This document shows positions 11,775 through 25,728 of a DNA stretch of 64,000 bases, one piece after another; the first letter of the stretch is position 1, and each line of letters begins with the position of its first letter. The stretch covers positions 1 through 64,000 of the forward strand of contig CAMCYP010000017.1 in NCBI GenBank assembly GCA_945885345.1, read 5' to 3'. The DNA is from Bordetella parapertussis (GTDB lineage: Bacteria; Pseudomonadota; Gammaproteobacteria; Burkholderiales; SG8-41). A program made the position numbers and the translations under genes. The notes beneath the pieces are model-generated. The model worked only from the letters and a program-made list of their open reading frames with translations, searched no databases and was not told where the DNA came from.

Positions 11775-12545
11775 TTGAACCAGGCAGGCCAGACAGCGGA
11801 TCACAGCGGGCAGCCCGCAATGGCAGCGGGGCGTCGTGTGCCTTTGCACGAACAGGTCTGCAACAGCCTGCGCGAACGCATCCTGTCCGGCGCTCTGGCG
11901 CCGAATGCGCGCCTGCCCAGCGAAGCCTGTCTGATGCAGTCCTTCGGCGTCAGCCGTGTCACTGTGCGGCAGGGATTAAAAGATCTGGCTGCAGAAGGGC
12001 TGGTTTACAGCCAGCAGGGCAAGGGCAGTTTTGTCAGCGCGCCACACGCAACCTACAACCTCAGTGCATTGCTAGGGTTTCACGAGGCGATGCAGGGCAA
12101 ACCTTTTTCCGCCACTTCCCAACTGCGATCAATCCGTGATGTCGCGGCTTCCCGTGAAATCGCCACGGCGCTGAATCTGAAACGTGGCGACGGCGTGTTC
12201 GAAGTCAAACGCATTCGCTGCCTCAATGCGCGGCCGGTGTCGGTGGACCTCAGTTATTTTCCGCCCGATGTCGGTGACCGGCTGCGCGACCAGGACCTCA
12301 ACCAGGATATTTTTCCGCTGCTGGAAACCCGCGGCATCAGCCTCGGGCGTTCGCGGATGTGGATCGAGGCCCAACCCTGTCCAGCCGAGTTCGCCGATGA
12401 TCTGGCGGTCACTTCCGGTGAGCCGGTGCTGCATCTGGCAAGGCTGACTTACAGTTCGTTTGACCGGCCTGTCGATTACGAACATCTCTATTGCCGCGGC
12501 GATTCATACCAGTACAAGGTCGAATTGCACCGGCGACCCGGCTAG
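11775..12545 (+). CDS. GntR-family regulator, HutC subfamily (UTRA domain)
   Basis: A 256-residue transcription factor. Residues about 22-90 form the GntR winged helix, with LPSEACLMQSFGVSRVTVRQGLKDLAAEGLV read as recognition helix and wing and QGKGSFV closing it. Residues about 95-250 are a UTRA ligand-binding domain, with VFEVKRIRC, PVSVDLSYFP and PVDYEHLYCRGDSYQYKVEL. Members bind a small metabolite and usually repress an adjacent operon. It precedes the flavoprotein/ferredoxin/ABC operon in the same direction and is its likely regulator. The ATG at 11775 is inferred; an in-frame ATG at 11820 is possible. Ligand unknown. Confidence 0.9.
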   Translation: MNQAGQTADHSGQPAMAAGRRVPLHEQVCNSLRERILSGALAPNARLPSEACLMQSFGVSRVTVRQGLKDLAAEGLVYSQQGKGSFVSAPHATYNLSALLGFHEAMQGKPFSATSQLRSIRDVAASREIATALNLKRGDGVFEVKRIRCLNARPVSVDLSYFPPDVGDRLRDQDLNQDIFPLLETRGISLGRSRMWIEAQPCPAEFADDLAVTSGEPVLHLARLTYSSFDRPVDYEHLYCRGDSYQYKVELHRRPG

Positions 12546-12603
12546 CCTGCGCCATGACGGTGCGGGTGCCTCCCGACTGCACTCCTGTGGCGCGTTCCGG
12601 TTA

Positions 12604-12669
12604 ATACAAGTTGTCTGGTTCATGGCGGCCATGCCCGCCCCGGGCATCGGCATGAGTGACGGCTTGTAT
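12604..12669. promoter_or_regulatory. Candidate operator half-sites before the AprA-like operon
   Basis: The 212-bp gap between the regulator and the flavoprotein gene holds ATACAAG at 12604-12610 and its reverse complement CTTGTAT at 12663-12669. The overlapping palindrome ACAA-G-TTGT lies at 12606-12614. Half-sites of this kind are plausible for HutC-type GntR proteins. This is inference only; I found no clear promoter boxes in the gap. Confidence 0.3.
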
Positions 12670-12757
12670 CGTGGCATGGCGGTTGCTGTATCTGGTTCAA
12701 CGAACCGGGCGTAATCAAGCGCTTGCCCGGCATGACAGCAGTGAACCGGAGAGCATT

Positions 12758-14497
12758 GTGAGCATACCCGAACCGATCATGATGGAAACCGACGTGCTGG
12801 TAGTCGGTGGCGGTACCGCAGGCCCGATGGCGGCGGTCAAGGCCAAAGAGAAAAACCCGAAGCTGCGGGTAATGCTGCTGGAAAAAGCCAACGTCAAGCG
12901 CAGCGGCGCGATTTCGATGGGCATGGACGGGCTCAACAATGCGGTGATTCCCGGCCATGCCACGCCGGAGCAGTACACCAAGGAAATCACCATCGCCAAC
13001 GACGGCATCGTCAACCAGAAAACCGTCTACGCCTACGCCACCAACAGTTATCGCACGATCCAGGAACTCGACCGCTGGGGCGTGAAGTTCGAAAAGGACG
13101 AGACCGGCGATTACGCGATGCGCAAGGTGCACCACCTCGGCACTTACGTGCTGCCGATGCCCGAGGGGCATCACATGAAAAAAATCCTCTACCGGCAGCT
13201 GAAGCGCACGCGCGTTGATGTCGTCAACCGCGTGATCGGCACCCGCATCATCACCGACAAGCAGGGGCGGGCAGCGGGACTGATGGGCTTTGACTGCCGC
13301 ACCGGGCAATTCACGGTGATCCGCGCGAAGGCGGTGATCCTGTGCTGCGGCGCGGCCGGTCGCATCGGCCTGCCGTCTTCCGGCTACCTGTTCGGCACCT
13401 ACGAGAACCCGACCAATGCCGGCGACGGTTATGCCATGGCCTATCACGCTGGCGCCGAACTGGCGAACCTTGAATGTTTCCAGATCAATCCGCTGATCAA
13501 GGACTACAACGGCCCGGCCTGTGCCTACGTCACCGGTCCATTCGGCGGCTACACCGCGAATTCGCATGGCGAACGCTTCATCGAGTGTGATTACTGGAGC
13601 GGCCAGATGATGTGGGAGTTCTACAACGAACTGCAGAGCGGCAAGGGGCCGGTGTTTCTCAAACTCGACCACCTCGCCGAAGAAACCATTGCCAACATCG
13701 AAGTCATCCTGCACACCAACGAACGGCCGAGCCGCGGCCGTTTTCATGACGGTCGCGGCACGAATTACCGGCAGAAGATGATCGAGATGCACATCTCGGA
13801 AATCGGTTTTTGCAGCGGCCACAGCGCTTCGGGTGTCTGGGTCAATGAAAAAGCCGAAACGACCGTGCCCGGGCTCTATGCTGCCGGCGACATGGCGAGT
13901 GTCCCGCACAACTACATGCTGGGCGCATTCACCTACGGCTGGTTCGCCGGCGAAAACGCCGCGCAGTACTGCGCCGATACCATGGCCGGAGAAGTGGACG
14001 ATACGCAGATTGCAGCCGAACACGCGCGGGTGATGGCACCCTTGTCCTGCACCGACGGCATTCCGCCGAGCCAGCTTGAATACAAACTGCGGCGCATGGT
14101 CAACGACTACCTGCAGCCGCCCAAGGTCACGCGCAAGATGGAACTCGGACTGGAGCGCTTTGCCGAAATCGGCGAAGACATCGGCCACCTCAGCGCCACC
14201 AATCCGCACGAACTGATGCGCGCCATGGAGGTTCAGCATATCCATGATTGCGCCAACATGGCGGCCCATGCTTCGCTGTTCCGCACCGAAAGCCGCTGGG
14301 GCCTGTATCACTACCGCGCCGATTTCCCGCAGCGCAATGATGAAGAGTGGTTCACCCACTGCCATCTGCGCAAATCTGCCGCCGGCCTGATGGAAAGCAT
14401 CAAGCGCCCGGTCGAACCCTACATCCTGCCGCTGGATGACGAAGAGAAGACCGCCTACCAGCGGCTGCGCGTCGTCAAAGAAGCGGCCAACGTCTGA
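12758..14497 (+). CDS. AprA-like FAD-dependent oxidoreductase (fumarate reductase superfamily)
   Basis: A 579-residue flavoprotein of the fumarate reductase/succinate dehydrogenase/adenylylsulfate reductase superfamily. The FAD Rossmann motif DVLVVGGGTAGPMAA is at the N-terminus, VILCCGAAG is the second flavin segment, and GLYAAGDMASV is the C-terminal FAD motif. The order flavoprotein then dicluster ferredoxin recalls AprA-AprB. However, no ATP sulfurylase, QmoABC or Dsr gene is in the window, so APS reductase activity should not be assumed. The start is GTG at 12758, eight bases after GGAGAG. Eleven bp separate it from the ferredoxin, so the two are probably translated together and form a complex. 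Substrate unknown; the downstream importer suggests an organosulfur or similar anion. Confidence 0.8.
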   Translation: MSIPEPIMMETDVLVVGGGTAGPMAAVKAKEKNPKLRVMLLEKANVKRSGAISMGMDGLNNAVIPGHATPEQYTKEITIANDGIVNQKTVYAYATNSYRTIQELDRWGVKFEKDETGDYAMRKVHHLGTYVLPMPEGHHMKKILYRQLKRTRVDVVNRVIGTRIITDKQGRAAGLMGFDCRTGQFTVIRAKAVILCCGAAGRIGLPSSGYLFGTYENPTNAGDGYAMAYHAGAELANLECFQINPLIKDYNGPACAYVTGPFGGYTANSHGERFIECDYWSGQMMWEFYNELQSGKGPVFLKLDHLAEETIANIEVILHTNERPSRGRFHDGRGTNYRQKMIEMHISEIGFCSGHSASGVWVNEKAETTVPGLYAAGDMASVPHNYMLGAFTYGWFAGENAAQYCADTMAGEVDDTQIAAEHARVMAPLSCTDGIPPSQLEYKLRRMVNDYLQPPKVTRKMELGLERFAEIGEDIGHLSATNPHELMRAMEVQHIHDCANMAAHASLFRTESRWGLYHYRADFPQRNDEEWFTHCHLRKSAAGLMESIKRPVEPYILPLDDEEKTAYQRLRVVKEAANV

Positions 14498-14508
14498 GAG
14501 GAATTGCC

Positions 14509-14742
14509 ATGACCTATGCGACACAGCGAACCAGCGTTCCCGTAACCGTTGACGAGGAAAAATGCATCGCGCAAAAAGGCTGCACGGTTTGCGTCGATGT
14601 CTGTCCGCTGGATGTGCTGGCCATCGACATGCTGAAAGGCAAGGCCTACATGAAATACGACGAATGCTGGTACTGCATGCCCTGCGAGAAGGACTGTCCG
14701 ACCGGCGCGGTGCATGTAGCCATTCCTTACCTGCTGCGCTGA
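14509..14742 (+). CDS. Dicluster 4Fe-4S ferredoxin (AprB-like, short)
   Basis: A 77-residue protein with two [4Fe-4S] motifs: KCIAQKGCTVCVDVCP near residues 18-34 and CWYCMPCEKDCP at about 52-63. The insertion between the first two cysteines of the first motif recalls AprB. It lacks the C-terminal tail that makes canonical AprB roughly 150 residues, so it is at most a minimal AprB. An AGAGGAA Shine-Dalgarno precedes the ATG. Expected role: electron-transfer subunit of the upstream flavoprotein. Confidence 0.85.
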   Translation: MTYATQRTSVPVTVDEEKCIAQKGCTVCVDVCPLDVLAIDMLKGKAYMKYDECWYCMPCEKDCPTGAVHVAIPYLLR

Positions 14743-14756
14743 CCGGGGAGCAATTG

Positions 14757-15728
14757 ATGAGCACTTTTCAGGCTGCTGAATCCATGCCGGGTGACCTGGC
14801 GGCGCGTCTCGTTGATGCTGACGCCGAAGTGCGGCGCATCGCGGTGATGGAGCTGCCGTACAGTGACGAAGACGACATCCTGCCGTTGCTGTTGAAAGCG
14901 CTGGCCGACACTGATCCGCAGGTGCGCGCCGAAGCGGCGAAAGCAGTGGAGGGTTTCGAGGAGCCCGAGGCGGTGACCGCATTGCTGGGTTTGTTGCATG
15001 ACCCGGCGGAGGAGACGCGCCGCGCCGCGGCCGACACGCTGTCCGAACTGAAGGAGAGCAGCAACGGCGGGTTGTTGCTGCAGGCTGTGGCGGATGCCGA
15101 TCCCTTCGTGAAGGCTGCCGTGTTCCGCGCATTACGTCCGTTGCGGGTGGCTGACAGTCTGGCACCGGCACTGTCCGGCCTCGACCATCCGTCGCCGCAG
15201 GTGCGGCGCGAAGCCACCGGCGTGCTGGGTTATCTCAAACATGCCGGCTCGCTGGGGCCGCTGACGCGCGTTGCGATGAACGATCCCGATCCCGAAGTGC
15301 GGCGCATCGCTGTCGGCGCACTGGGTTTTGCCACCGATGTGGAGGTATTGCCGGCGTTGACCCATGCGCTGGGGGATACCTCCTGGCAGGTGCGTGAAGA
15401 AGCTGCCGGCACTCTCGGGAAACTGAAGCTCATCGGCGCTGTTGATCATCTGATTACGGCAATGGCTGATCGCTACTGGCAGGTGCGGGTGCGTGCGGCA
15501 CGCAGCCTGGGGCGATTGAAGGCCGTGGCGGCGCTGGACGTATTGAGCGAAGCGTCAATGCATGAAATCAGCAATTTGCGCAAGGAGGCCGTGATTGCCC
15601 TGGGTGAAATCGGTGATCCGCGGGCGATACCCGTGCTGGAAGTCACGCTCAAGGACGCGGATCCCGATGTGCGCAAACTGGCCCAGCTTGCACTGAAGCA
15701 GATCCAGGTCAACAACGCAGGGCACTGA
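14757..15728 (+). CDS. HEAT-repeat protein
   Basis: A 323-residue solenoid made almost wholly of about ten HEAT_2/PBS-lyase-type units of ~31 residues. Each carries a D-x-D-P/W-x-V-R-x-x-A core (e.g. DTDPQVRAEAAKAV, DPDPEVRRIAVGAL, DADPDVRKLAQLAL). There are no cysteines, signal peptide or catalytic motif. HEAT proteins of this sort act as scaffolds or as cofactor-insertion chaperones. Placed between two ferredoxin genes, it may assemble or hold the redox complex. The start at 14757 follows GGGGAG; the longer open frame starting inside the ferredoxin gene is not used. Confidence 0.88.
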   Translation: MSTFQAAESMPGDLAARLVDADAEVRRIAVMELPYSDEDDILPLLLKALADTDPQVRAEAAKAVEGFEEPEAVTALLGLLHDPAEETRRAAADTLSELKESSNGGLLLQAVADADPFVKAAVFRALRPLRVADSLAPALSGLDHPSPQVRREATGVLGYLKHAGSLGPLTRVAMNDPDPEVRRIAVGALGFATDVEVLPALTHALGDTSWQVREEAAGTLGKLKLIGAVDHLITAMADRYWQVRVRAARSLGRLKAVAALDVLSEASMHEISNLRKEAVIALGEIGDPRAIPVLEVTLKDADPDVRKLAQLALKQIQVNNAGH

Positions 15729-15745
15729 GGTACACGGAGAATTTC

Positions 15746-16072
15746 ATGGCTTATGTCGTCACCGAACCCTGCGTCAACTGCCGTTACACGGATTGTGTCG
15801 AGGTCTGCCCGGTGGACTGTTTTCACCAGGGACCGAATTTCATGGTGATCAATCCCGAGGGCTGCATCGACTGCACGCTGTGCGTGGATGAATGCCCGGT
15901 GGAGGCGATCTGCGAAGTTTCCGAAGTGCCGCCGGGACAGGAACATTTCATCGAACTCAATGCACGTTATTCAGCCCTGTGGCCGGTGGTGACCGACAAA
16001 ACGGAGCCCCTGCCAACAGCCGAAGTCTGGGCGACGGTCAGTGAAAAATTCGCCGAACTGAAGGAAGCCTGA
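15746..16072 (+). CDS. 7Fe-type ferredoxin (FdxA-like)
   Basis: A 108-residue ferredoxin starting MAYVVTEPCVNCRYTDC. The first set (C9, C12, C17, C21) combined with CIDCTLCVDECP is the arrangement of [3Fe-4S]/[4Fe-4S] ferredoxins of the FdxA group. The ~50-residue C-terminal extension (HFIELNARYSALWPV and following) is also characteristic. It lies 17 bp after the HEAT gene with a CGGAGA ribosome-binding site. Probably a low-potential carrier between the flavoprotein complex and the NAD(P)-linked 1193-residue flavoprotein further on (inference). Confidence 0.9.
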   Translation: MAYVVTEPCVNCRYTDCVEVCPVDCFHQGPNFMVINPEGCIDCTLCVDECPVEAICEVSEVPPGQEHFIELNARYSALWPVVTDKTEPLPTAEVWATVSEKFAELKEA

Positions 16073-16136
16073 GCGGGTGTACAGCGAATCCATAGCAGCG
16101 GTGCTGGAGGAGAATTTGACTGGTTTTCGTATCTTA

Positions 16137-16150
16137 TTGTTTTTAAACAA
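16137..16150. promoter_or_regulatory. Inverted repeat before the ABC-transporter genes
   Basis: TTGTTT-TT-AAACAA is a perfect inverted repeat 17 bp before the binding-protein ATG and close to its CAGGGAG ribosome-binding site. The first 12 bases (TTGTTTTTAAAC) recur exactly at 23643-23654. A TTGACT box at 16116-16121 could be a -35, but no good -10 follows. Candidate operator. Confidence 0.35.
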
Positions 16151-16167
16151 ATTATCAGGGAGTCGCC

Positions 16168-17622
16168 ATGAACAGCACAAATGTGGGTACGGCAGTTGGA
16201 GCGAAACGATTGTTGCGGCTGCTGCGCAGTGTGTTGCCCGCACTGTGCCTGGTCGCGGGGCTGGGCCATGCCCAGAGCGTGATCAAGATCGGCATCGGCA
16301 CCCAGAATACGACGACGAATACGGTGACCGGCGGCATTGTCATCAAGGAACTCAAGTTGCTTGAAAAGCACCTGCCGAAAACCGGCAAGTACGCCGGCGT
16401 GAAGTACGAGTTCGACTGGCAAAACGCCACCTCCGGGCCGCCGATCACCAACGGCCTGATGGCGGACAAGATCCACATCGGCATGATGGGCGACTATCCC
16501 TTGTTGGTAGCGGGAGCGACCGGGCAGGCTACGAAGAACGAAACGCAGTTGGTGGCAATCATCGCCTATAACCAGTTCGGTGCCGGCAACGGCGTGGTGG
16601 TGCACAAGGATTCGCCGTATTACGAGCTGGCGGATCTGAAAGGCAAGCAGGTGTCGGTGCCCTTCGGCTCCGCGGCGCACGGCATGATGCTGCAGGCGAT
16701 GCAGGCGCGGGGCTGGCCGGAGAATTTCTGGAACCTGGCGAGCCAGTCACCCGAGGTCGGCACCACCAATCTGCAGGAAAAACGCATCGACGGCCACGGC
16801 GATTTTGTGCCCTTCGCCGAACTGCTGCCATTCCGCGGCTTCGCGCGCAAGATTTTTGACGGCGCAGAAACCAAGATTCCGACTTTTCACGGCGTGGTGA
16901 TCCGCAAGGATTTCGGCGAGAAATATCCGGAAATCGTCGTCGCCTACATCAAGGCGCTGATGGAAGCCAATGACTGGGTGCGCAAGAACCCGAAGCTGGC
17001 GATGGAGAAAATCGAGGAATGGACCAAGATCGAAAAAGAGGTCGCTTACGTATTTCTCGGACCCAGCGGCGTGCATACGCTGGATCCGACGATCAAGCCG
17101 AAATGGGTGGAAACCCTGGGCGTGGTTCACGGCGTGCTGCAGAAAATGGGCCGCGTCAAGGAGTTCGACGCCAATGCCTGGGTCAACGAAAGCTACCTGA
17201 AGCAGGCTTTCAAGGAACTCAAACTCGATTACGACAAGCAGAAGGCTTCGTTCGCCGGGTACGAAATCAGCGGCAAGGATGCACTGTGCAATGTCCCGAT
17301 CAAGCAGCCGCGTGAAGCCGGCGAGATCTGGGTGACCGGCGGCAATATCGAACCCTACAGTTCTGCCCTGTGCACCCTGGCCGGCGTCAAAAAATACATG
17401 AGCGAAGGTAAAAAAATCAACGTGGCCTATGTGTTCGACAGGTCGCTGGGCATCAAGATGTTCGCCGACAAGGCGTTTTACGCAGTCAATGCCTCGGATC
17501 CGAAAAAACCGCAGATCGTGCCGTTCCTGCTGAAGAAGGATGCCGAGGCGCATGTTGCCAAGGGTGGCGGCAAGCTGGCGACGTATGCCGAAGCACTGGC
17601 AGCGGCGACCATCGGCAAATAA
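16168..17622 (+). CDS. ABC substrate-binding protein (NrtA/SsuA/TauA class) with C-terminal NosL-like domain
   Basis: A 484-residue periplasmic binding protein. Residues 1-36 look like a signal peptide (two Arg-rich turns, hydrophobic core, cleavage near GHAQS). Residues about 37-365 form the CmpA/NrtA/SsuA-like two-lobed fold, with LKGKQVSVPFGSAAH and PEIVVAYIKALMEAN. The family usually ends near 330-350 residues. Here about 120 extra residues follow, and 397-478 resemble NosL: a Cys402 region, KINVAYVFDRSLGIK, ADKAFYAVNAS, then IVPFLLKKDAEAHVAKGGGKLATYAEAL. NosL-type domains bind copper; the Met ligand of NosL is not evident, so metal binding is uncertain. The permease and ATPase follow directly. 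Confidence 0.85.
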   Translation: MNSTNVGTAVGAKRLLRLLRSVLPALCLVAGLGHAQSVIKIGIGTQNTTTNTVTGGIVIKELKLLEKHLPKTGKYAGVKYEFDWQNATSGPPITNGLMADKIHIGMMGDYPLLVAGATGQATKNETQLVAIIAYNQFGAGNGVVVHKDSPYYELADLKGKQVSVPFGSAAHGMMLQAMQARGWPENFWNLASQSPEVGTTNLQEKRIDGHGDFVPFAELLPFRGFARKIFDGAETKIPTFHGVVIRKDFGEKYPEIVVAYIKALMEANDWVRKNPKLAMEKIEEWTKIEKEVAYVFLGPSGVHTLDPTIKPKWVETLGVVHGVLQKMGRVKEFDANAWVNESYLKQAFKELKLDYDKQKASFAGYEISGKDALCNVPIKQPREAGEIWVTGGNIEPYSSALCTLAGVKKYMSEGKKINVAYVFDRSLGIKMFADKAFYAVNASDPKKPQIVPFLLKKDAEAHVAKGGGKLATYAEALAAATIGK

Positions 17623-17643
17623 TCGGCAACCGGGAGCCGGGCA

Positions 17644-18570
17644 ATGAGCACCGTGCAGGCACTGCGCAAGAAGGACGAGCTGGTGACAGAGGACCGTGAA
17701 GCCGATGGTCCGGCGCCGGTGGCGGCGGTGATCAAGCAGCCGGCGATACAAGCGCCGGCTGCCCGGAATCCGGTCCTGCTGTGGTTGCGCAGCAATGGCG
17801 TCAGCATGCTGCTGTGGGTCGTTTCCATCGGCATCCTGCTCGGCATCTGGTATATCGGCACGCGGTACAAGCTGGAGTTCTACATCCGCTTCACCAATGT
17901 GCCGACGCCGGCGGAAGTGCTGCAGAAGGTGGTGGAGGTCAATAAGTCGGGGAAATTCCTGGTCAATATCGGCATCAGCGTGCGCCGCATCCTGATCGGC
18001 TTTTCCATCGCGGTGGTGCTGGGCTCGTTGCTGGGCCTGTTGATTGGCCGTTATCGTGTCATGCGCGACCTGCTGTTTCCGATCTGCGAAGTGCTGCGGC
18101 CGATTCCGGCGATTGCCTGGGTGCCGATGGCGATCATGTTGTGGCCGACGAATGAAGTCAGCATTGTGTTCATCACCTTCCTCGGTTCGTTTTTCCCGAT
18201 CCTGATCAACACCATCCATGGCGTGCACTCGATAGACCCGGTGCTGATCCGCGCGGCACGCTCCCTGGGCGCCAATGAATTCCGCCTATTTGCAAACGTG
18301 ATCCTGCCCGGGGCGATGCCGCAGATCTTTACCGGCTTCTCGGTGGGCATGGGGGTGGCCTGGGTGTCGCTGATCGCGGCAGAAATGATCTCCGGGCAGT
18401 TCGGCATCGGTTATTTCACCTGGGAAGCCTATTCGCTGGTCAGTTATTCGGAAATCGGCCTAGGCATGATCACCATCGGCGTGCTCGGGCTGGTGTGCAG
18501 CGGCGCCATCCAGATCATCGGCAGGTTGCTGATGCCCTGGTCCACCTATGCCAGTGCGGGAAAGAAATGA
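17644..18570 (+). CDS. ABC transporter permease (SsuC/TauC/NrtB family)
   Basis: A 308-residue inner-membrane permease. A ~45-residue charged, Ala/Pro-rich cytoplasmic head precedes about six membrane helices, the first near VSMLLWVVSIGILLGIWYIG. The EAA loop reads IRAARSLGANEFRLFANVILPGAMPQI, matching the SsuC/TauC group, and should dock onto the next gene's ATPase. The unusual feature is the long N-terminal head. It is 21 bp after the binding protein. Confidence 0.93.
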   Translation: MSTVQALRKKDELVTEDREADGPAPVAAVIKQPAIQAPAARNPVLLWLRSNGVSMLLWVVSIGILLGIWYIGTRYKLEFYIRFTNVPTPAEVLQKVVEVNKSGKFLVNIGISVRRILIGFSIAVVLGSLLGLLIGRYRVMRDLLFPICEVLRPIPAIAWVPMAIMLWPTNEVSIVFITFLGSFFPILINTIHGVHSIDPVLIRAARSLGANEFRLFANVILPGAMPQIFTGFSVGMGVAWVSLIAAEMISGQFGIGYFTWEAYSLVSYSEIGLGMITIGVLGLVCSGAIQIIGRLLMPWSTYASAGKK

Positions 18571-18580
18571 GCAAAAACGA

Positions 18581-19441
18581 ATGAGCGAACAGTCGAGAGG
18601 GGCCATCGACATCAAGGACCTCGGCGTGGTGTTCAACGCCGGCGGCAATACCGTCGAGGCCGTGAGTTCGGTGAGCATGGACGTCAAGCCCGGCGAGTTT
18701 GTTTCGCTGATCGGACCGTCAGGCTGTGGCAAGTCGACCCTGCTCAATATCGTGGCCGGTTTTGTGCGTCCGACTTCGGGCAGCGCTTTGCTGGACGGTG
18801 CGGCGATCAAGGGGCCGGGTTCGGACCGCGGCGTGGTGTTCCAGCAGTATTCGCTGTTTCCCTGGCTCTCGGTGCGCAAGAACGTCGAATTCGGGCTGAA
18901 AATGAAAGGCGTGTCGGCGGCGCAACGGGTGCCGCAGGCGCGGACGCTGCTGGGCCTCGCCGGCCTGCTGGCGTTTGAAAACCACTATCCGGATCAGTTA
19001 TCGGGTGGCATGAAGCAGCGCGTCGGCATCGTTCGCGCGCTGGCGACCAGTCCGCAGGTGTTGCTGATGGACGAACCCTTCGGCGCGCTGGATGCGCAGA
19101 CCCGGGTGGTGATGCAGGAAATCCTCACCAACATGTGGCAGCAGTTCCGGATTTCAGTGCTGTTTGTGACCCATGATATTGATGAGTCGATTTTTCTCTC
19201 GGACAAGATTTATGTGATGACGGCACGGCCGGGCCGCATCAAGGCCGAGATCAAGGTACCGCTGCCACGACCGCGCACGCCGGAAATGACCTACACGCCG
19301 GAATTCATCGGTCTGGTGCAGCAACTGCGGGCACTGATCCGCGAGGAATCCCTGGCCGCGATGGGTTCTGAACTGAAAGACGGCGGGCTCAGCGGTTTCG
19401 GCATGGAAATCGGTCCCCAGGGTGTCGAGAAGGTGGTTTGA
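18581..19441 (+). CDS. ABC transporter ATP-binding protein (SsuB/TauB/NrtD family)
   Basis: A 286-residue ATPase with Walker A GPSGCGKST, Q-loop VFQQYSLFPWL, signature LSGGMKQRVGIVRAL, Walker B VLLMDEPFGALD and the switch His in VTHDIDES. The tail of ~45 residues resembles that of nitrate/sulfonate importers. The ATG at 18581 lies 10 bp after the permease stop; a longer frame beginning in the permease gene is not favoured. The DUF971 gene begins inside its stop codon (TGATG), showing translational coupling. Confidence 0.95.
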   Translation: MSEQSRGAIDIKDLGVVFNAGGNTVEAVSSVSMDVKPGEFVSLIGPSGCGKSTLLNIVAGFVRPTSGSALLDGAAIKGPGSDRGVVFQQYSLFPWLSVRKNVEFGLKMKGVSAAQRVPQARTLLGLAGLLAFENHYPDQLSGGMKQRVGIVRALATSPQVLLMDEPFGALDAQTRVVMQEILTNMWQQFRISVLFVTHDIDESIFLSDKIYVMTARPGRIKAEIKVPLPRPRTPEMTYTPEFIGLVQQLRALIREESLAAMGSELKDGGLSGFGMEIGPQGVEKVV

Positions 19442-19758
19442 TGGCAGCCGTTGTTCAGCCCCTTGAGGTCTGCAACCATGGCACGGAAGGCGTACTGGAA
19501 ATTGCCTGGTCCGACGGCATGACCGGACGCATGGCACACCGGTTGTTGCGCGAAGCCTGTCGTTGCGCGCATTGCACGGCAGTTGCCCGTGGTGGTGTGC
19601 CGGTGCGCGCGGAAACCGGCATCCGCATCACTGCCGTTGAAGCTTATGGCAGCAATACGCTACGCCTGAGTTTTAATGATGGCCACCAACGCGGCCTTTA
19701 TCCCTTCGATTTCCTGCGGTCGCTGGCTGCGCCGGTGTCTCCGGCGCTGAAGCAGTAG
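19441..19758 (+). CDS. DUF971 / GBBH-like N-terminal domain protein
   Basis: A 105-residue protein consisting of one DUF971 domain: IAWSDGMTGRMAHRLLREACRCAHC near the N-terminus and RLSFNDGHQRGLYPFDFLR near the C-terminus. The domain also forms the zinc-binding N-terminal part of gamma-butyrobetaine hydroxylase; here the Cys-x-Cys-x-x-Cys cluster could hold zinc or assist Fe-S work. Stand-alone copies are often near Fe-S or quinone genes, and the role is unknown. The start overlaps the ATPase stop, and this is the last gene of the operon before a convergent small ORF. Confidence 0.88.
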   Translation: MAAVVQPLEVCNHGTEGVLEIAWSDGMTGRMAHRLLREACRCAHCTAVARGGVPVRAETGIRITAVEAYGSNTLRLSFNDGHQRGLYPFDFLRSLAAPVSPALKQ

Positions 19759-19776
19759 AGCGGCATTGCTGCGATG

Positions 19777-19911
19777 TCAACAAACAAAGGCGTTGGCAAA
19801 ACCCAGCAGCAGGTCCGGGTTGAGGTAGCCGCGGAAAATCAGGTAGGTCATGGCCGCGGCCAGCACCGACAACACGGTCCATACCAGCATTTTAATTCGA
19901 GCTGTGTTCAT
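19777..19911 (-). CDS. Conserved-looking 44-residue membrane peptide
   Basis: A short minus-strand frame encodes MNTARIKMLVWTVLSVLAAA followed by a second hydrophobic stretch, the motif FRGYLNPDLLLGFA and a final Cys. One helix (residues 8-26) is predicted to span the membrane. The composition, Met start and compact stop look like a real small protein rather than a shadow, and I recall similar FRGYLNP-ending peptides in betaproteobacteria, though this was not verified. It converges with the DUF971 gene (18 bp apart) and is divergent from the 1193-residue flavoprotein (119-bp gap). Function unknown. Confidence 0.65.
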   Translation of the reverse strand: MNTARIKMLVWTVLSVLAAAMTYLIFRGYLNPDLLLGFANAFVC

Positions 19912-20030
19912 CACGGATGTCCGCCCCGAAAGTGCAGAATCATCCGAATTATTGCACGGGAGGCGCAGGCGCCCCGACTTGCCGCCGTTATCACCAAAAA
20001 CTCTAAGAAAATAACATCCTGATCCAAGTC

Positions 20031-23000
20031 ATGGATACTCCAGTTGATATAATTTCCCCTTTGCACGGCACCAGGAAAATTTTGAACCTATCCGCCGCAA
20101 ATTCCCTGCAGTTCGGTTTTTCCTTCGAAGACTTTTACAGCCGCGATGGTCTGATCCGTGTGGATCAGGTCTTCCTGCGCGAACTGGGGCAGGCGGATGC
20201 CGCATTGCATGCGCAGTTGCTGGCAGCGCGTGCCGCGGCTGATCCGCTGGTGGCAAAAACCGAGTCGGAACTGCTGCTCGCGCTGACACCGCACCTGGAA
20301 GACTTCATCGGTGAACTGTTCGGCATCACGGCGGAGGTTCGCGCGCTGTCGGCGCGGCACCATGATCTGGCGCCACTCTACAGCGTCAAGCGCCTGTTCG
20401 TGCAGCGCAAGGCCATGCACAAGTACAAGGCCGATGCGGCTGCAGCCATCGATGGTCCGGCAGTTGGTGAAAAACTGGCAGCATTGTGTGGCGAGCCGTT
20501 GACGGAACTGGTGTTTGCGAAACAAGTGACGGCCTGGCAACAAGACGAGCAGGCTCATGCCGAAGCGCTGGAACTGGCGCTGCAGTACGCAGCCTGGGCG
20601 GCGCATACGCCCGCGGGACATGAGCGGCATCATGCCGGCGTGCTGTTCAAGTCGCCGCACAAACTGGACATACAGAACCTGGTGCCGGTGCAGACCACCG
20701 CGGCGGCGGGTTATACCGAGCATCGTTTCGATGTGTCACGTCTGCGCCTGCGCCAGGGGTTCAAGCTGACCGATAAGGGTACCGACCTGACCGGTGCGCT
20801 GGACGAGGCGAATTACTGCATCTGGTGCCATGAGCAGGGCAAGGATTCCTGTTCGAAGGGTTTGAAAGAGAAGGGCGCCAGCGGCCGCGGTGCGCAATCC
20901 TTCAAGAAGTCGCCTTTCGGCATCACGCTGGCCGGTTGTCCGCTCGAAGAAAAAATCTCCGAATTCCACAAGGCCAAGACCGAAGGCCTGGCGATCGGCG
21001 CGCTGGCGATCATCACGGTCGATAACCCGATGGTTGCCGCTACCGGGCATCGCATCTGCAACGACTGCATGAAGGCCTGCATTTACCAGAAGCAGGAACC
21101 GGTCAATATCCCGCAGGCGGAAACCCGCACGCTGAAGGATGTGCTGGAACTGCCCTGGGGATTCGAGATTTACGGCCTGCTGACACGCTGGAATCCGCTG
21201 AACCTGCGCCATCCCTGTCCCAAGGCACCCAGCGGCAAGCGGGTACTGGTGGCAGGCATGGGGCCGGCGGGATTTTCGCTGTCCCATTTTCTGATGAACG
21301 ACGGCCATACCGTGGTTGGCATCGATGGGCTGAAAATCGAGCCCTTGCCGGCGGAATTGTCCGGCGTTGACATCACTGGTCGCCGTGTCGCATTCAAACC
21401 GATTCGCGACGTGCGCGAATTGCATGAGTCGCTGGATGAGCGCGCGATGGCCGGATTTGGTGGTGTCGCCGAGTACGGCATTACCGTGCGCTGGGACAAG
21501 AATTTCCTCAAAATCATCCGCCTGCTGCTGGAGCGCCGTTCGCAGTTTGCGTTATTTGGCGGTGTGCGCTTTGGCGGCACGATCACCGCCGAGGATGCTT
21601 TCGCGATGGGTTTTGATCATATTGCGCTGGCAATAGGTGCGGGGCGGCCGACGGTGCTCGATATGCCCAACGGCCTGGCGCGGGGTGTGCGTACGGCCTC
21701 GGATTTTCTGATGGCACTGCAACTGACTGGAGCGGCAAAAACCGATTCGATTGCCAACATGCAGCTGCGGCTGCCGGTGGTGGTGATCGGCGGTGGCCTG
21801 ACCGCCGTGGATGCGGCCACTGAATCACTGGCCTACTATCCGCTGCAGGTCGAGAAATTCCTGCTGCGCTATGAACAGCTGGCGCGCGAACACGGCGAGG
21901 CCGCGGCGCGCATTGCGTGGAATCCGGAGGAGCGCGAAACCGCCGATGAATTCCTTGCGCATGCGCGGGCGATTCGCGCCGAGCGCGCTGCAGCCGCAAA
22001 AGAAGGCCGCGAACCGCGGGTGCTGCAGTTGCTGCAGTCCTGGGGCGGCGCAACCATCGCCTATCGCAAGCGGCTGGTCGACAGCCCGTCGTACACGCTG
22101 AATCACGAAGAGGTGCATAAGGCACTGGAGGAGGGCATTACCTTTGGCGAGTGCCTGACGCCACTGGCCATCAAGGTCGATGCTTATGGGCATGCCCGCG
22201 CATTGAAAGTTGTGGTGCATGCCAAGGGTGAAGACGGCGAATGGCGGGAAACCGGCCGAGTGGAAATGCCGGCGCGGGCGATCCTGATTGCGGCCGGCAC
22301 CCAGCCCAATACCGTGCTGGCGCGCGAGGATGCTGAACATTTTGTGCTCGATGGCCGTTACTTCCGCGCATGCGATGCCAGCGGCCAGCCGGTGGCGGCG
22401 GAGAAGGCGATTTCCAAGCCCAATGCAATCAATGTGCTGCTGTCGAAACGCGATGACGGGCGTTTCATCAGTTATTTCGGTGATGTACATCCGTCATTTT
22501 TCGGCAATGTTGTCAAAGCAATAGGCAGCGCCAAGCAGGGTTATCCGGTGGTCAGCGGTGTGCTGGCGCAGATGAAGCCCGCGGCGGCAGTCGATGACGC
22601 GACCTTCCTCGGTGCCTTGCAGCGTGATTTGCGCGCAACGGTGCACGAGGTGAAACGCCTGACGCCGCAGATCATTGAAGTCGTGGTGCATGCGCCACTG
22701 GCGGCGCGGCGTTTCCAGCCGGGCCAGTTTTATCGTCTGCAGAATTTCGAAGCACTGGCACCACGTACCGCGGGCAGCACGCTGGCCATGGAAGGTCTGG
22801 CGCTTACGGGGGCCTGGGTCGATGCGGAGCAGGGGCTGCTGTCGACCATCGTGCTCGAAATGGGCGGCTCCAGCGATCTGTGCGTGCAGCTCAAGCCCGG
22901 CGAACCCATTGTGCTGATGGGACCGACCGGTACGCCGACCGAAATTCCTACTGGTGAGACCGTGGTACTGGTCGGTGGCGGGCTCGGCAATGCGGTGCTG

Positions 23001-23612
23001 TTCTCGATCGGCCAGGCCATGCGCAAGGCCGGCTGCCGCGTGTTGTACTTCGCCGGCTACAAACACATGATCGATCGTTACCGCATCGAGGATATTGAAG
23101 CCGCCAGCGATGTCGTGGTCTGGTGTTCGGATGACGAGCCTGGATTCATGCCGGCGCGTCCTGATGACCGCCGCTTCGTCGGTAATATCGTACAGGCGAT
23201 GAACGCTTATGCATCGGGTGAGCTCGGCGCGCAGGCGATCCCGTTCAGCGATGCCGACCGCATCATCGCCATCGGTTCCGACAAGATGATGGCTGCCGTG
23301 GCGCGGGCGCGGCACGAGGTGCTGAAGCCGCACCTGAAGCCGCAGCACCATGCGATCGGTTCCATCAACTCGCCGATGCAGTGCATGATGAAAGAGGTTT
23401 GCGCGCAGTGTCTGCAACCACAGATTGATCCGCTGACCGGTAAAACGAGTTATGTATTTTCCTGTTTCAATCAGGATCAGCCGCTGGATTGTGTGGACTG
23501 GAAGGCACTGGATCAGCGTTTGAAACAGAACTCGACGCAGGAAAAACTCACTGCCGAGTGGCTGGACCATTGTCTGGTCAAGCTGGAGCTGCGCGACATT
23601 CAGCGGGTTTGA
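20031..23612 (+). CDS. Single-chain NfnAB/GltD-PyrK-like iron-sulfur flavoprotein, 1193 aa
   Basis: Three modules. Residues 1-250: helical region of unknown family. Residues about 255-830: GltD/NfnB-like unit with two [4Fe-4S] sites (C263, C266, C274, C303; C343, C346, C350, C396), FAD motif VLVAGMGPAGFSLS (406-419) and a second dinucleotide fold VVVIGGGLTAVDAATES. Residues about 860-1193: ferredoxin-reductase/PyrK-like unit with FQPGQFYRLQ, an NAD site ETVVLVGGGLGNAV and a C-terminal [2Fe-2S]-type set C1118, C1124, C1127 plus a cysteine near 1145. The NfnB+NfnA order suggests ferredoxin:NAD(P)H electron transfer, possibly bifurcating; that is inference. The ATG at 20031 has a weak ribosome-binding site. 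The gene stands alone, between the 44-residue peptide and a convergent gene. Confidence 0.82.
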   Translation: MDTPVDIISPLHGTRKILNLSAANSLQFGFSFEDFYSRDGLIRVDQVFLRELGQADAALHAQLLAARAAADPLVAKTESELLLALTPHLEDFIGELFGITAEVRALSARHHDLAPLYSVKRLFVQRKAMHKYKADAAAAIDGPAVGEKLAALCGEPLTELVFAKQVTAWQQDEQAHAEALELALQYAAWAAHTPAGHERHHAGVLFKSPHKLDIQNLVPVQTTAAAGYTEHRFDVSRLRLRQGFKLTDKGTDLTGALDEANYCIWCHEQGKDSCSKGLKEKGASGRGAQSFKKSPFGITLAGCPLEEKISEFHKAKTEGLAIGALAIITVDNPMVAATGHRICNDCMKACIYQKQEPVNIPQAETRTLKDVLELPWGFEIYGLLTRWNPLNLRHPCPKAPSGKRVLVAGMGPAGFSLSHFLMNDGHTVVGIDGLKIEPLPAELSGVDITGRRVAFKPIRDVRELHESLDERAMAGFGGVAEYGITVRWDKNFLKIIRLLLERRSQFALFGGVRFGGTITAEDAFAMGFDHIALAIGAGRPTVLDMPNGLARGVRTASDFLMALQLTGAAKTDSIANMQLRLPVVVIGGGLTAVDAATESLAYYPLQVEKFLLRYEQLAREHGEAAARIAWNPEERETADEFLAHARAIRAERAAAAKEGREPRVLQLLQSWGGATIAYRKRLVDSPSYTLNHEEVHKALEEGITFGECLTPLAIKVDAYGHARALKVVVHAKGEDGEWRETGRVEMPARAILIAAGTQPNTVLAREDAEHFVLDGRYFRACDASGQPVAAEKAISKPNAINVLLSKRDDGRFISYFGDVHPSFFGNVVKAIGSAKQGYPVVSGVLAQMKPAAAVDDATFLGALQRDLRATVHEVKRLTPQIIEVVVHAPLAARRFQPGQFYRLQNFEALAPRTAGSTLAMEGLALTGAWVDAEQGLLSTIVLEMGGSSDLCVQLKPGEPIVLMGPTGTPTEIPTGETVVLVGGGLGNAVLFSIGQAMRKAGCRVLYFAGYKHMIDRYRIEDIEAASDVVVWCSDDEPGFMPARPDDRRFVGNIVQAMNAYASGELGAQAIPFSDADRIIAIGSDKMMAAVARARHEVLKPHLKPQHHAIGSINSPMQCMMKEVCAQCLQPQIDPLTGKTSYVFSCFNQDQPLDCVDWKALDQRLKQNSTQEKLTAEWLDHCLVKLELRDIQRV

Positions 23613-24266: not shown

Positions 24267-25592
24267 TTAATTGCGTCCGACCTCACGCAGTGCATCGGCG
24301 AGCTTGCCGACCAGTTCATCGATCTGTGCCTTGCTGATGATCAGCGGCGGCGACAGCGCAATGATGTCGCCGGTGGTGCGGATCAGCACGCCCTTTTCGT
24401 AACACTTGAGGAAAGTCTCGAAGGCACGTGCTGTGGGCGCGCCGGGCCTTGGTTCGAGTTCGATGCCGGCGACCAGGCCCATGTTGCGCACGTCGATGAC
24501 ATTGGGCATTTCGCGCAGCGACTGCACTGCCTGCTCGAAATAGGGTGCGAGTTCCTGCGAACGCTGGAACAGTCCTTCCTCCTCGAAGGTGTCGAGGCTG
24601 GCCAGCGCCGCGGCCGTGGCCAGCGGGTGTCCGGAATAGGTATAGCCGTGAAAGAGTTCGATGGTGCCGGGAGGCGCGCTGTTGACCACGGCATCGTAAA
24701 TGCCGCGGCGCGCGATCACCGCACCCATCGGCACGGTGCCATTGGTCAGGCCTTTGGCGATGATCATCATGTCGGGCACCACACCGACCACGTCGGCGCC
24801 AAAGCAGGGGCCGGTGCGGCCGAAGCCGGTGATGACTTCATCAAATATCAGCAGCAGACCGTATTTGTCGCAGATCTGGCGCAGCCGTTCGAGGTAACCC
24901 TTGGGCGGGACCAGCACGCCGGTGGATCCGGCCAGTGGTTCGACGATGACCGCAGCGATGTTGCTGGCGTCGTGCAGCGGGATGATGCGTTGTTCGAGTT
25001 CATCGGCGAGATGCGCGCCCCAGGCAGGCTGGCCGCGGCTGAAGGCGTTTTCCTTCAGGTTGTGTGTATGCGCGAGGTGGTCGACGCGGAACAGCATGTT
25101 GCCGTAAGCCTTGCGGTTGGCTGGGATGCCGCCGACCGAGATGCCGCCGAAGCCGGCGCCGTGATAGCCGCGTTCGCGGCCGATCAGCACATTGCGTTGG
25201 CCTTCGCCGCGGGCGCGGTGGTAGGCGAGTGCGATTTTGAGCGCGGTATCGACGCCTTCCGAGCCGGAGTTGCAGTAAAACACGTGGTCAAGGTCGCCCG
25301 GCGCCAGCGCGGCCAGGCGTTCGGCGACGCGGAAGGCATCCGGGTGCCCCATCTGGAATGCCGGCGCGTAGTCCATCGCTGCGACCTGTTTCTGCACGGC
25401 TTCGACGATGCGCGGGCGGCAATGGCCGGCGTTGACACACCACAGGCCGGCGGTGCCGTCGAGGATCTGGCGGCCGTCATCGGTGGTGTAGTGCATGTCC
25501 TTGGCGGCGACCATCATGCGCGGCGCCTGTTTGAATGCGCGGTTCGCGGTGAACGGCATCCAGAATGATTCGAGGTTGTTGCGTGCAGTCAT
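24267..25592 (-). CDS. Class III omega-aminotransferase (beta-alanine/omega-amino acid:pyruvate type)
   Basis: A 441-residue PLP-dependent aminotransferase. Characteristic stretches are ESFWMPFTANRAFKQAPRM at the start, FYCNSGSEGVDTALKIA (phosphate binding), LLIFDEVITGFGRTG, and the Schiff-base lysine in IIAKGLTNGTVPMGAV. It most resembles beta-alanine:pyruvate or omega-amino acid:pyruvate transaminases, which may also accept taurine, putrescine or GABA. Substrate specificity cannot be read. The start at 25592 matches the family N-terminus; the frame continues upstream. It is divergent from the osmoprotectant-type ABC gene, with a 136-bp gap. Confidence 0.9.
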   Translation of the reverse strand: MTARNNLESFWMPFTANRAFKQAPRMMVAAKDMHYTTDDGRQILDGTAGLWCVNAGHCRPRIVEAVQKQVAAMDYAPAFQMGHPDAFRVAERLAALAPGDLDHVFYCNSGSEGVDTALKIALAYHRARGEGQRNVLIGRERGYHGAGFGGISVGGIPANRKAYGNMLFRVDHLAHTHNLKENAFSRGQPAWGAHLADELEQRIIPLHDASNIAAVIVEPLAGSTGVLVPPKGYLERLRQICDKYGLLLIFDEVITGFGRTGPCFGADVVGVVPDMMIIAKGLTNGTVPMGAVIARRGIYDAVVNSAPPGTIELFHGYTYSGHPLATAAALASLDTFEEEGLFQRSQELAPYFEQAVQSLREMPNVIDVRNMGLVAGIELEPRPGAPTARAFETFLKCYEKGVLIRTTGDIIALSPPLIISKAQIDELVGKLADALREVGRN

Positions 25593-25728
25593 GGAAAACC
25601 TTTGCCTGGAGTGAATGCGCAGCCCCCGGTGCCGCGCGGTTTGCAGTGCGCAGCATGCTACCATCTTCACGCCATGACACGACACAGGCGGGTTGCGAAA
25701 CAGTTGGGTTGCAAATGAGGGCTGCCGG

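Follow-up and report, generated by a model that had tools for sequence, protein, structure and literature searches.

Genes at the locus

The window analyzed in this study is a stretch of 64,000 nucleotides, positions 1 to 64,000 of the forward strand of contig CAMCYP010000017.1 (contig C17) from the Bordetella parapertussis assembly GCA_945885345.1, a genome of 3.59 Mb in 69 contigs that is 93.6% complete. The window contains a gene cluster built around a flavoprotein similar to AprA of adenosine 5'-phosphosulfate (APS) reductase, which is encoded together with a small ferredoxin, a HEAT-repeat protein and an ATP-binding cassette (ABC) importer. The original prediction, made from the sequence without database searches, regarded this cluster as a candidate undescribed redox-plus-import system, which takes up an organic sulfur compound or a similar anion, transforms it with the flavoprotein and passes electrons by ferredoxin to NAD(P). 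Profile scans with Pfam and NCBIfam models, which took in the genes of positions 11775-23612 and three downstream genes, confirm all genes named in this prediction at their positions (Table 1). The HEAT-repeat protein is matched by Pfam with many HEAT units.

Table 1. Genes of the cluster and features linked to it
Feature	Position	Strand	Evidence and remarks
GntR/UTRA (HutC-type) regulator	11775..12545	+	UTRA 8.5e-34, GntR 6.8e-20; TTG start listed, true start may be further in
AprA-like flavoprotein, 579 amino acids, NF006131/PRK08275 family	12758..14497	+	1107.4 bits; GTG taken as the start, with a possible ATG start a few codons further in
Small two-[4Fe-4S] ferredoxin, 77 amino acids	14509..14742	+	Resembles first half of AprB; CWxC Trp (W54)
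HEAT-repeat protein, 323 amino acids	14757..15728	+	HEAT_2 2.7e-61
Ferredoxin FdxA (optional electron module)	15746..16072	+	NF045490 143.2 bits, cut-off 135
ABC substrate-binding protein	16168..17622	+	SsuA/TauA-like domain and C-terminal NosL-like domain (about 371-475)
ABC permease	17644..18570	+	BPD_transp_1 6.6e-24
ABC ATPase	18548..19441	+	ABC_tran 5.3e-33; start probably further in
DUF971 (PF06155, GBBH-like_N) protein	19438..19758	+	3e-19; CRCAHC motif; ATG at 19441
Conserved hydrophobic peptide, 44 residues	19777..19911	-	Linked, outside the operon
GltD-like and PyrK-like (Nfn-like) flavoprotein, 1193 amino acids (optional electron module)	20031..23612	+	PF14691 (Fer4_20), PF07992 (Pyr_redox)

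The flavoprotein family

The flavoprotein passes the cut-off of NF006131 (PRK08275), which is 587 bits, and is under the cut-offs of all aprA, sdhA, frdA and nadB models listed. Its score against TIGR02061 (AprA) is 181.5 bits (109.6 bits in the genome search), below the cut-off of 641.75. The true AprA of the source genome scores 1084.2 bits and is encoded on contig C39, away from this locus. Identity within the family is 58-97% across Proteobacteria, Cyanobacteria and Actinobacteria, and the next match is at about 27%. When plasmid-encoded proteins are compared at full length, the identities are 77% for Cupriavidus and Paraburkholderia, 65% for Cyanobacteria and 59% for Actinobacteria, with an annotated AprA next at 27.5%. 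In a tree of 45 rows, hand-picked from more than 100 available, 27 family members are separated from 13 AprA sequences at 100/100, the branch that isolates the 27 members from all other rows is supported at 91/97, and the methanogen 3'-phosphoadenosine 5'-phosphosulfate (PAPS) reductase groups with AprA at 100/100. The deeper branching order of this tree is unsure, because the tool warned of long branches. The flavoprotein belongs to a single family with sharp bounds, which includes neither AprA nor the methanogen PAPS reductase, and its placement outside all AprA rows examined agrees with the phylogenetic position that the original prediction required of it.

The family is widely distributed. 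The flavoprotein is encoded by 12 of 61 relatives, by 6 of 21 genomes within the genus (the source genome included) and by 21 of 398 Pseudomonadota genomes, and by 0 of 14 control genomes. Among the pattern matches listed in genome contigs, 582 of 598 encode a relative (E 1e-3), and 55 of 72,556 plasmid records encode one at E 1e-40. The carriers are many unrelated bacteria from soil, water and plants, and those of the operon include some rhizobia, Pseudomonas, relatives of Burkholderia, Acinetobacter and Cyanobacteria. The word 'undescribed' holds for the function of the system and does not hold for the flavoprotein itself, which already has a model, NF006131, as does its HEAT-fused form, NF010374 (PRK13800). 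A functional study of the system was not found in the open-licence PMC literature, and 'fumarate reductase' occurs zero times in the portions of two sulfur-source omics papers (PMC7661421, PMC8557817) that a search for key terms covered. A second paralogue is encoded in the source genome on contig C5 (locus L041, 1423-3216), downstream of an AraC-type regulator, and scores 354 bits against NF006131, under the cut-off.

Active site of the flavoprotein

The best match of the flavoprotein in the Protein Data Bank is the PAPS reductase of Methanothermococcus thermolithotrophicus (8A8O; 215 bits, residues 10-557). A structure model of the flavoprotein is poor (mean predicted local distance difference test score 63.8), and its fold is compared by sequence with that of AprAB from Archaeoglobus fulgidus (1JNR/2FJA). 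The 27 family members were aligned with the 13 AprA sequences, using the residue numbers and roles that we take to apply to A. fulgidus AprA: R265 and W234 for APS binding, and Asn74 and His398 on the flavin side. In 27/27 members, the residues at Asn74 (N60), Lys267 and Asp268 are kept, as is the G-S/G-H motif His (H355). By sequence, the flavoprotein shares its fold with AprAB, as well as the flavin-site Asn and His and, in its partner, a two-cluster ferredoxin with Trp. In contrast, R265, W234 and Gln145, which are invariant in 13/13 AprA sequences, are replaced in 27/27 members by L246, Y215 and V131 respectively. Gln145 is named as a substrate-site residue of AprA in the available portion of PMC10322725. 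APS is an unlikely substrate of the flavoprotein, because the residues that hold it are replaced in all members aligned. In addition, all 27 members share C240, C255 and C352, and the 13 AprA sequences have no Cys at these positions.

The Methanothermococcus PAPS reductase is described in the same portion of PMC10322725 as an assimilatory offshoot of the AprAB plan. This enzyme retains R265 and W234 and groups with AprA, whereas the family examined here lacks its PAPS loop. The substrate loop of the enzyme (K120, R121, S122) is replaced by (K/R/Q)VH(H/R)xGxYVLPMPEG in the members printed; the substituted loop is longer, with the sequence KVHHxGxYVLPMPEG among the Proteobacteria printed and xVHRxGxYVLPMPEG among the Cyanobacteria and Actinobacteria. 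In AprA and the PAPS reductase, this loop distinguishes between APS and PAPS. The active-site Arg of succinate dehydrogenase, which we take to lie in the GANRLG stretch (R399 in E. coli), corresponds to a gap in 27/27 members. The database name 'fumarate reductase/succinate dehydrogenase' is therefore doubtful, and this family name, carried with NF006131 and NF010374, is unsupported by the active site. Identification of the flavoprotein as AprA is rejected by its score, the tree and the replaced APS-site residues, as PAPS reductase by the tree and the active site, and as succinate dehydrogenase or fumarate reductase by the missing Arg.

Conservation of gene linkage

Gene linkage was analyzed for 107 loci, which were chosen for the flavoprotein (107/107) and consist of 72 pattern-match, 20 control-paired and 15 plasmid loci. 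The pattern-match set is the best 80 loci with the 8 shorter than 17 kb left out, and the plasmid set is 15 of 16 loci, with L130, which has no annotation, left out. The controls are 36 stretches from 19 of the 20 control-paired genomes (L183, with 75 bases, is left out); three further stretches that were sought for this set do not exist. The flavoprotein, small ferredoxin, HEAT protein, binding protein, permease, regulator and DUF971 protein are each found in 0/36 controls; homologues of the ABC ATPase, which is of a very common kind, are found in 13/36. The gene arrangement is not due to chance. The linkage is kept across classes and phyla, as expected for the redox-plus-import system that was proposed around the flavoprotein. 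The regulator adjoins the flavoprotein gene in most of 86 loci compared, and a Crp/Fnr regulator lies beside the genes in some loci. Clustering of the flanking genes reflects mainly Pseudomonas synteny and shadow frames.

Proteins that accompany the flavoprotein

The small ferredoxin is present in 116/116 loci read, as counted in a separate scan, since a 90-residue limit makes the count from the 107 loci low. In alignments it corresponds to the first half of AprB, and it has 77 residues, as compared with about 150 for the ferredoxin of AprAB. Against TIGR02060 (AprB) it scores 40 bits, with residues 11-70 on profile positions 2-64 of 132, and does not pass the cut-off of 135.65. Its eight Cys residues and W54 are kept in at least 116 of 117 rows. 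A Trp residue is proposed for electron transfer in PAPS reductase, according to the accessible part of PMC10322725, and W54 may, in our own reading, be its counterpart. In Nostoc edaphicum (L135), two HAD hydrolases, a methyltransferase, a GNAT protein and a VOC protein are encoded between the flavoprotein and the ferredoxin (13692-16873).

A separate HEAT protein is encoded in 72/72 pattern-match, 20/20 control-paired and 14/15 plasmid loci (106/107). The lone exception is the locus of the actinobacterium Tsukamurella (L136), in which the HEAT protein is fused to the flavoprotein to form a protein of 893 amino acids, as in NF010374. This fusion argues that the HEAT protein and the flavoprotein work together. 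AprAB has neither a HEAT protein nor an importer of its own, in contrast to the system described here.

The DUF971 protein is encoded in 60/72 pattern-match, 18/20 control-paired and 7/15 plasmid loci. In three cyanobacterial loci, an Mrp/NBP35-type Fe-S carrier is encoded after the HEAT protein, at the usual place of DUF971. In HCF101, DUF971 is fused to a carrier of the Mrp/NBP35 type, and the bacterial motif given in the consulted section of PMC7980591 resembles the CRCAHC motif of this DUF971 protein. The DUF971 or Mrp protein may therefore have a role in loading of Fe-S clusters.

The importer

The binding protein is nearest to SsuA and TauA, both by structure and by sequence; the aligned rows span its residues 35-362 and leave the NosL-like part outside. 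It scores 113.4 bits against TIGR01728 (SsuA), for which the cut-off is 163.5, and likewise does not pass the cut-off of the TauA family. It differs from the binding proteins of SsuABC and TauABC also in the additional C-terminal NosL-like domain. This domain scores 17.4 bits, with a Pfam gathering score of 24, and among eight binding proteins scanned, two are above this score, five are below it and one gives no match; its profile matches NosL 7OG7 at 2.8e-4. The binding protein is found in 56/72 pattern-match, 18/20 control-paired and 13/15 plasmid loci. For the ATPase and permease, the top-scoring models are SaoA and SaoP, with scores under the cut-offs. A sulfonate-type anion is a likely cargo of the importer, in keeping with the import of an organic sulfur compound or similar anion that the original prediction proposed. 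A LysR regulator of L133 (9661-11661) is weakly similar in its second part to an NMT1-type binding domain (E 3e-4, under the cut-off), and a LysR regulator of similar length is encoded beside the genes in L134 (9388-11424).

Electron modules

Chains of Nfn and PyrK are matched by the 1193-residue protein in the Protein Data Bank, and its N-terminal part is unassigned. It has GltD-like and PyrK-like halves in common with NfnAB and GltD-PyrK, a likeness by homology alone, and differs from NfnAB in that it is a single chain with an extra N-terminal part. Its score against NF005128 (PRK06567) is 835 bits, and the cut-off of 1072 is not passed. It is encoded in 11/86 loci, each time with FdxA (11/11). 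Among Pseudomonadota genomes it is found in 14/249, and of these 14 only the source genome is among the 21 flavoprotein carriers. The 1193-residue protein is therefore rejected as a defining part of the system; together with FdxA it forms an optional module and is not a general part.

Ferredoxin-NADP reductase (FNR) is encoded in 9/20 control-paired loci, all from the same phylum but from another class, and also in Methylobacterium; it is found in 0/36 controls. The large protein and FNR occur together in 0/107 loci, and neither occurs in the controls. Loci with dedicated partners encode FdxA, FNR or both of these, or else FdxA together with the 1193-residue protein. Electrons more likely flow from NADPH through ferredoxin to the flavoprotein than in the reverse direction, because the partners are of the FNR or Nfn-like kind with FdxA and because sulfite exporters are encoded nearby in some loci. 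This argument is only moderate, because most loci have no dedicated partner. The predicted flow from the flavoprotein through ferredoxin to NAD(P) is probably reversed for the same reasons.

Elsewhere, the 1193-residue protein is encoded with cysH, cysD and cysN in 2 of 12 loci (L242, L245), where several of the 12 end at contig ends and the cys seeds came from these two loci, as identified by NCBIfam. One of the two contains a sulfite reductase gene and the other a piece of a siroheme reductase. It is plausible that the 1193-residue protein feeds ferredoxin for sulfur reduction, which favours electron flow from NADPH to the flavoprotein. Where this system is absent from a genome, the protein could possibly donate electrons to assimilatory sulfate reduction.

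Sulfur genes in the neighbourhood

The neighbourhood of the cluster contains genes of sulfur metabolism in several lineages. In Pseudanabaena, the flavoprotein, ferredoxin, HEAT protein, Mrp protein, YeiH and TauE/SafE are encoded consecutively; Leptolyngbya has the same order except that TauE/SafE precedes the YeiH-type exporter. The Nostoc region encodes metX, O-acetylhomoserine sulfhydrylase (metY), YeeE and sulfonate-binding proteins, and in Aquabacterium TauE/SafE lies directly upstream of the regulator. Two FMN-type oxidoreductases and an M20 protein lie near the cluster in Sinorhizobium, and an NtaA/DmoA monooxygenase and a second importer of the SsuA/TauA class in Cupriavidus. An alkylsulfatase of the AtsK type is encoded in Pseudomonas sp. 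UFMG81 (L074; 620 bits to 1OIH of the Protein Data Bank) and, as a type, in 8/72 pattern-match and 2/20 control-paired loci. Any of six sulfur-gene groups is found in 9/20 control-paired loci, as compared with 1/36 controls (Fisher p 1.8e-4). This p value overstates the independent evidence, because the loci come from few genera and few pattern-match loci have sulfur neighbours. The counts for plasmid loci are not independent, because the sulfur-gene seeds came mostly from these loci. In Salmonella, YeiH is chiefly responsible for sulfite resistance according to the accessed part of PMC12880088. Taken together, the sulfur neighbours make sulfite the likeliest product of the flavoprotein.

A PF01507 protein (CysH, CysD) was not found in the source genome at E 1e-3, with the genome 93.6% complete. 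A siroheme reductase of this genome is encoded on contig C16, with all type models under their cut-offs, and its nearest kind is encoded in L242 beside cysHDN.

Proposed function and alternatives

The best explanation of these results, although its probability falls somewhat short of even, is that the system scavenges sulfur: an assimilatory, ferredoxin-dependent flavoenzyme of the AprAB type would free sulfite from a sulfonate or sulfate ester that the cell has imported. The cargo of the importer would be an organic oxyanion of sulfur, with these two classes as the likeliest. The flavoprotein and the AprB-like ferredoxin would form a cytoplasmic complex of the APS-reductase type, in which reduced FAD, fed via the two clusters, would attack the sulfur and give sulfite in a reaction that needs neither oxygen nor ATP-dependent activation of the substrate. 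Electrons would come from NADPH by way of ferredoxin, with FdxA and the Nfn-like protein at this locus, with FNR and optionally FdxA in other lineages, and with general ferredoxins in loci that have neither set. The HEAT protein would hold the complex together, and the DUF971 or Mrp protein would help load its Fe-S clusters. Sulfite would be reduced onward for cysteine, and the surplus would be exported.

Several results weigh against this explanation. The bicarbonate and nitrate binders score just behind SsuA and TauA for the binding protein, and the binding protein is absent from 16/72 pattern-match loci. As many as 87/107 loci have no large protein, FNR or lone FdxA, and 10 of the 12 other loci of the large protein have no cys genes. 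The nine control-paired loci with sulfur neighbours come from only 4 of 10 genera, and five of six YeiH cases come from one genus. Any sulfur neighbour is found in only 17/72 pattern-match loci, and TauE and YeiH are found in 0/72. PF01507 is found in 5/12 flavoprotein carriers and in 23/49 non-carriers, indicating that carriage is not tied to loss of CysH or CysD; the system as a plain substitute for these proteins is rejected by this result. We know of no precedent for flavin attack that cleaves an unactivated C-S bond.

It is improbable that the flavoprotein instead oxidizes the imported compound and delivers electrons by ferredoxin to NAD(P), as a degradation step or for energy. FNR and the Nfn-like protein could run in either direction, dissimilatory AprAB is reversible as given in the cited part of PMC10322725, and several carriers with the large protein belong, by record title, to sulfur-oxidizer lineages (Thiobacillus, Halothiobacillus, Hydrogenophilales and Acidithiobacillus). 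However, the large protein elsewhere accompanies reductive cys genes in two of 12 loci, some neighbours are of the sulfur-starvation type, and most loci have no dedicated electron acceptor.

The probability is similarly low that the substrate is free of sulfur. In this case the flavoprotein would be a redox enzyme, of the fumarate reductase kind or another, that acts on a carboxylate or on a nitrogen, metal or metalloid compound, and the NosL-like domain would handle a metal. The database name, the copper binding of NosL and the best scores of the ATPase and permease against SaoA and SaoP (under the cut-offs) would fit this alternative. Against it stand the gap at the succinate dehydrogenase Arg in 27/27 members, the binding domain, which is closest to sulfonate binders, and the sulfur neighbours. 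In addition, none of the six binding proteins printed shows the Cys-Gly-Met that we take to be the motif of NosL.

The least probable of these alternatives is that the flavoprotein reduces a sulfur compound that is activated or S-S bonded and is either made in the cell or imported, such as a nucleotide other than APS or PAPS or a thiosulfonate such as S-sulfocysteine, with leaving-group chemistry near that of AprA: the AprA-site residues that are retained (Asn, Lys, Asp and His), the three family-specific invariant Cys residues (C240, C255 and C352) and the 16/72 pattern-match loci without importer speak for it, while the adenylate-holding residues are gone and the importer, where present, is of the SsuA/TauA class, for which we know of no nucleotide transport.

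If the best explanation is true, the operon now labelled 'fumarate reductase' would serve as an organic sulfur uptake route. The known assimilatory sulfonate enzymes SsuD and TauD require oxygen; to our knowledge, oxygen-independent ones act on a few activated C2/C3 sulfonates (Xsc, SuyAB and CuyA) or use glycyl radicals. The glycyl radical route for isethionate is treated in the consulted portion of PMC6453916. The flavin-ferredoxin chemistry would be a new addition to the routes of desulfonation. A more far-reaching idea, which must be regarded as unlikely as a whole, is that the system is an oxygen-independent assimilatory desulfonase. It would put the APS-reductase plan to a third use, with a ferredoxin-fed flavin that cleaves imported organosulfonates or sulfate esters without their activation and so yields sulfite. 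The genes are carried on plasmids too, in Proteobacteria, Cyanobacteria and Actinobacteria. Organic sulfur would then be usable where SsuD, TauD and AtsK fail without oxygen. The family would also be a clean test case for substrate change of the APS-reductase site and would correct the doubtful database name. The parts of the system are of known kinds; their combination and the likely substrate are new.

The original prediction is partly supported and is right in kind: a conserved redox-plus-import system is found, with the flavoprotein outside the AprA rows examined and the gene linkage conserved. The electron direction it proposed is probably reversed, and the 1193-residue protein was overweighted.

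Other features near the cluster

The 44-residue peptide is encoded on the opposite strand and is for this reason rejected as a member of the operon. This peptide (LLL/MLLNFAN...C, with a C-terminal Cys) recurs in five other loci. L048 and L049 have it at the position seen here, L051 and L052 have it upstream of the regulator gene, and in L013 it lies upstream of the flavoprotein gene. An omega-aminotransferase gene of the AptA type follows the cluster at 24267-25685 on the minus strand, with a score of 728.9 bits and a cut-off of 500.

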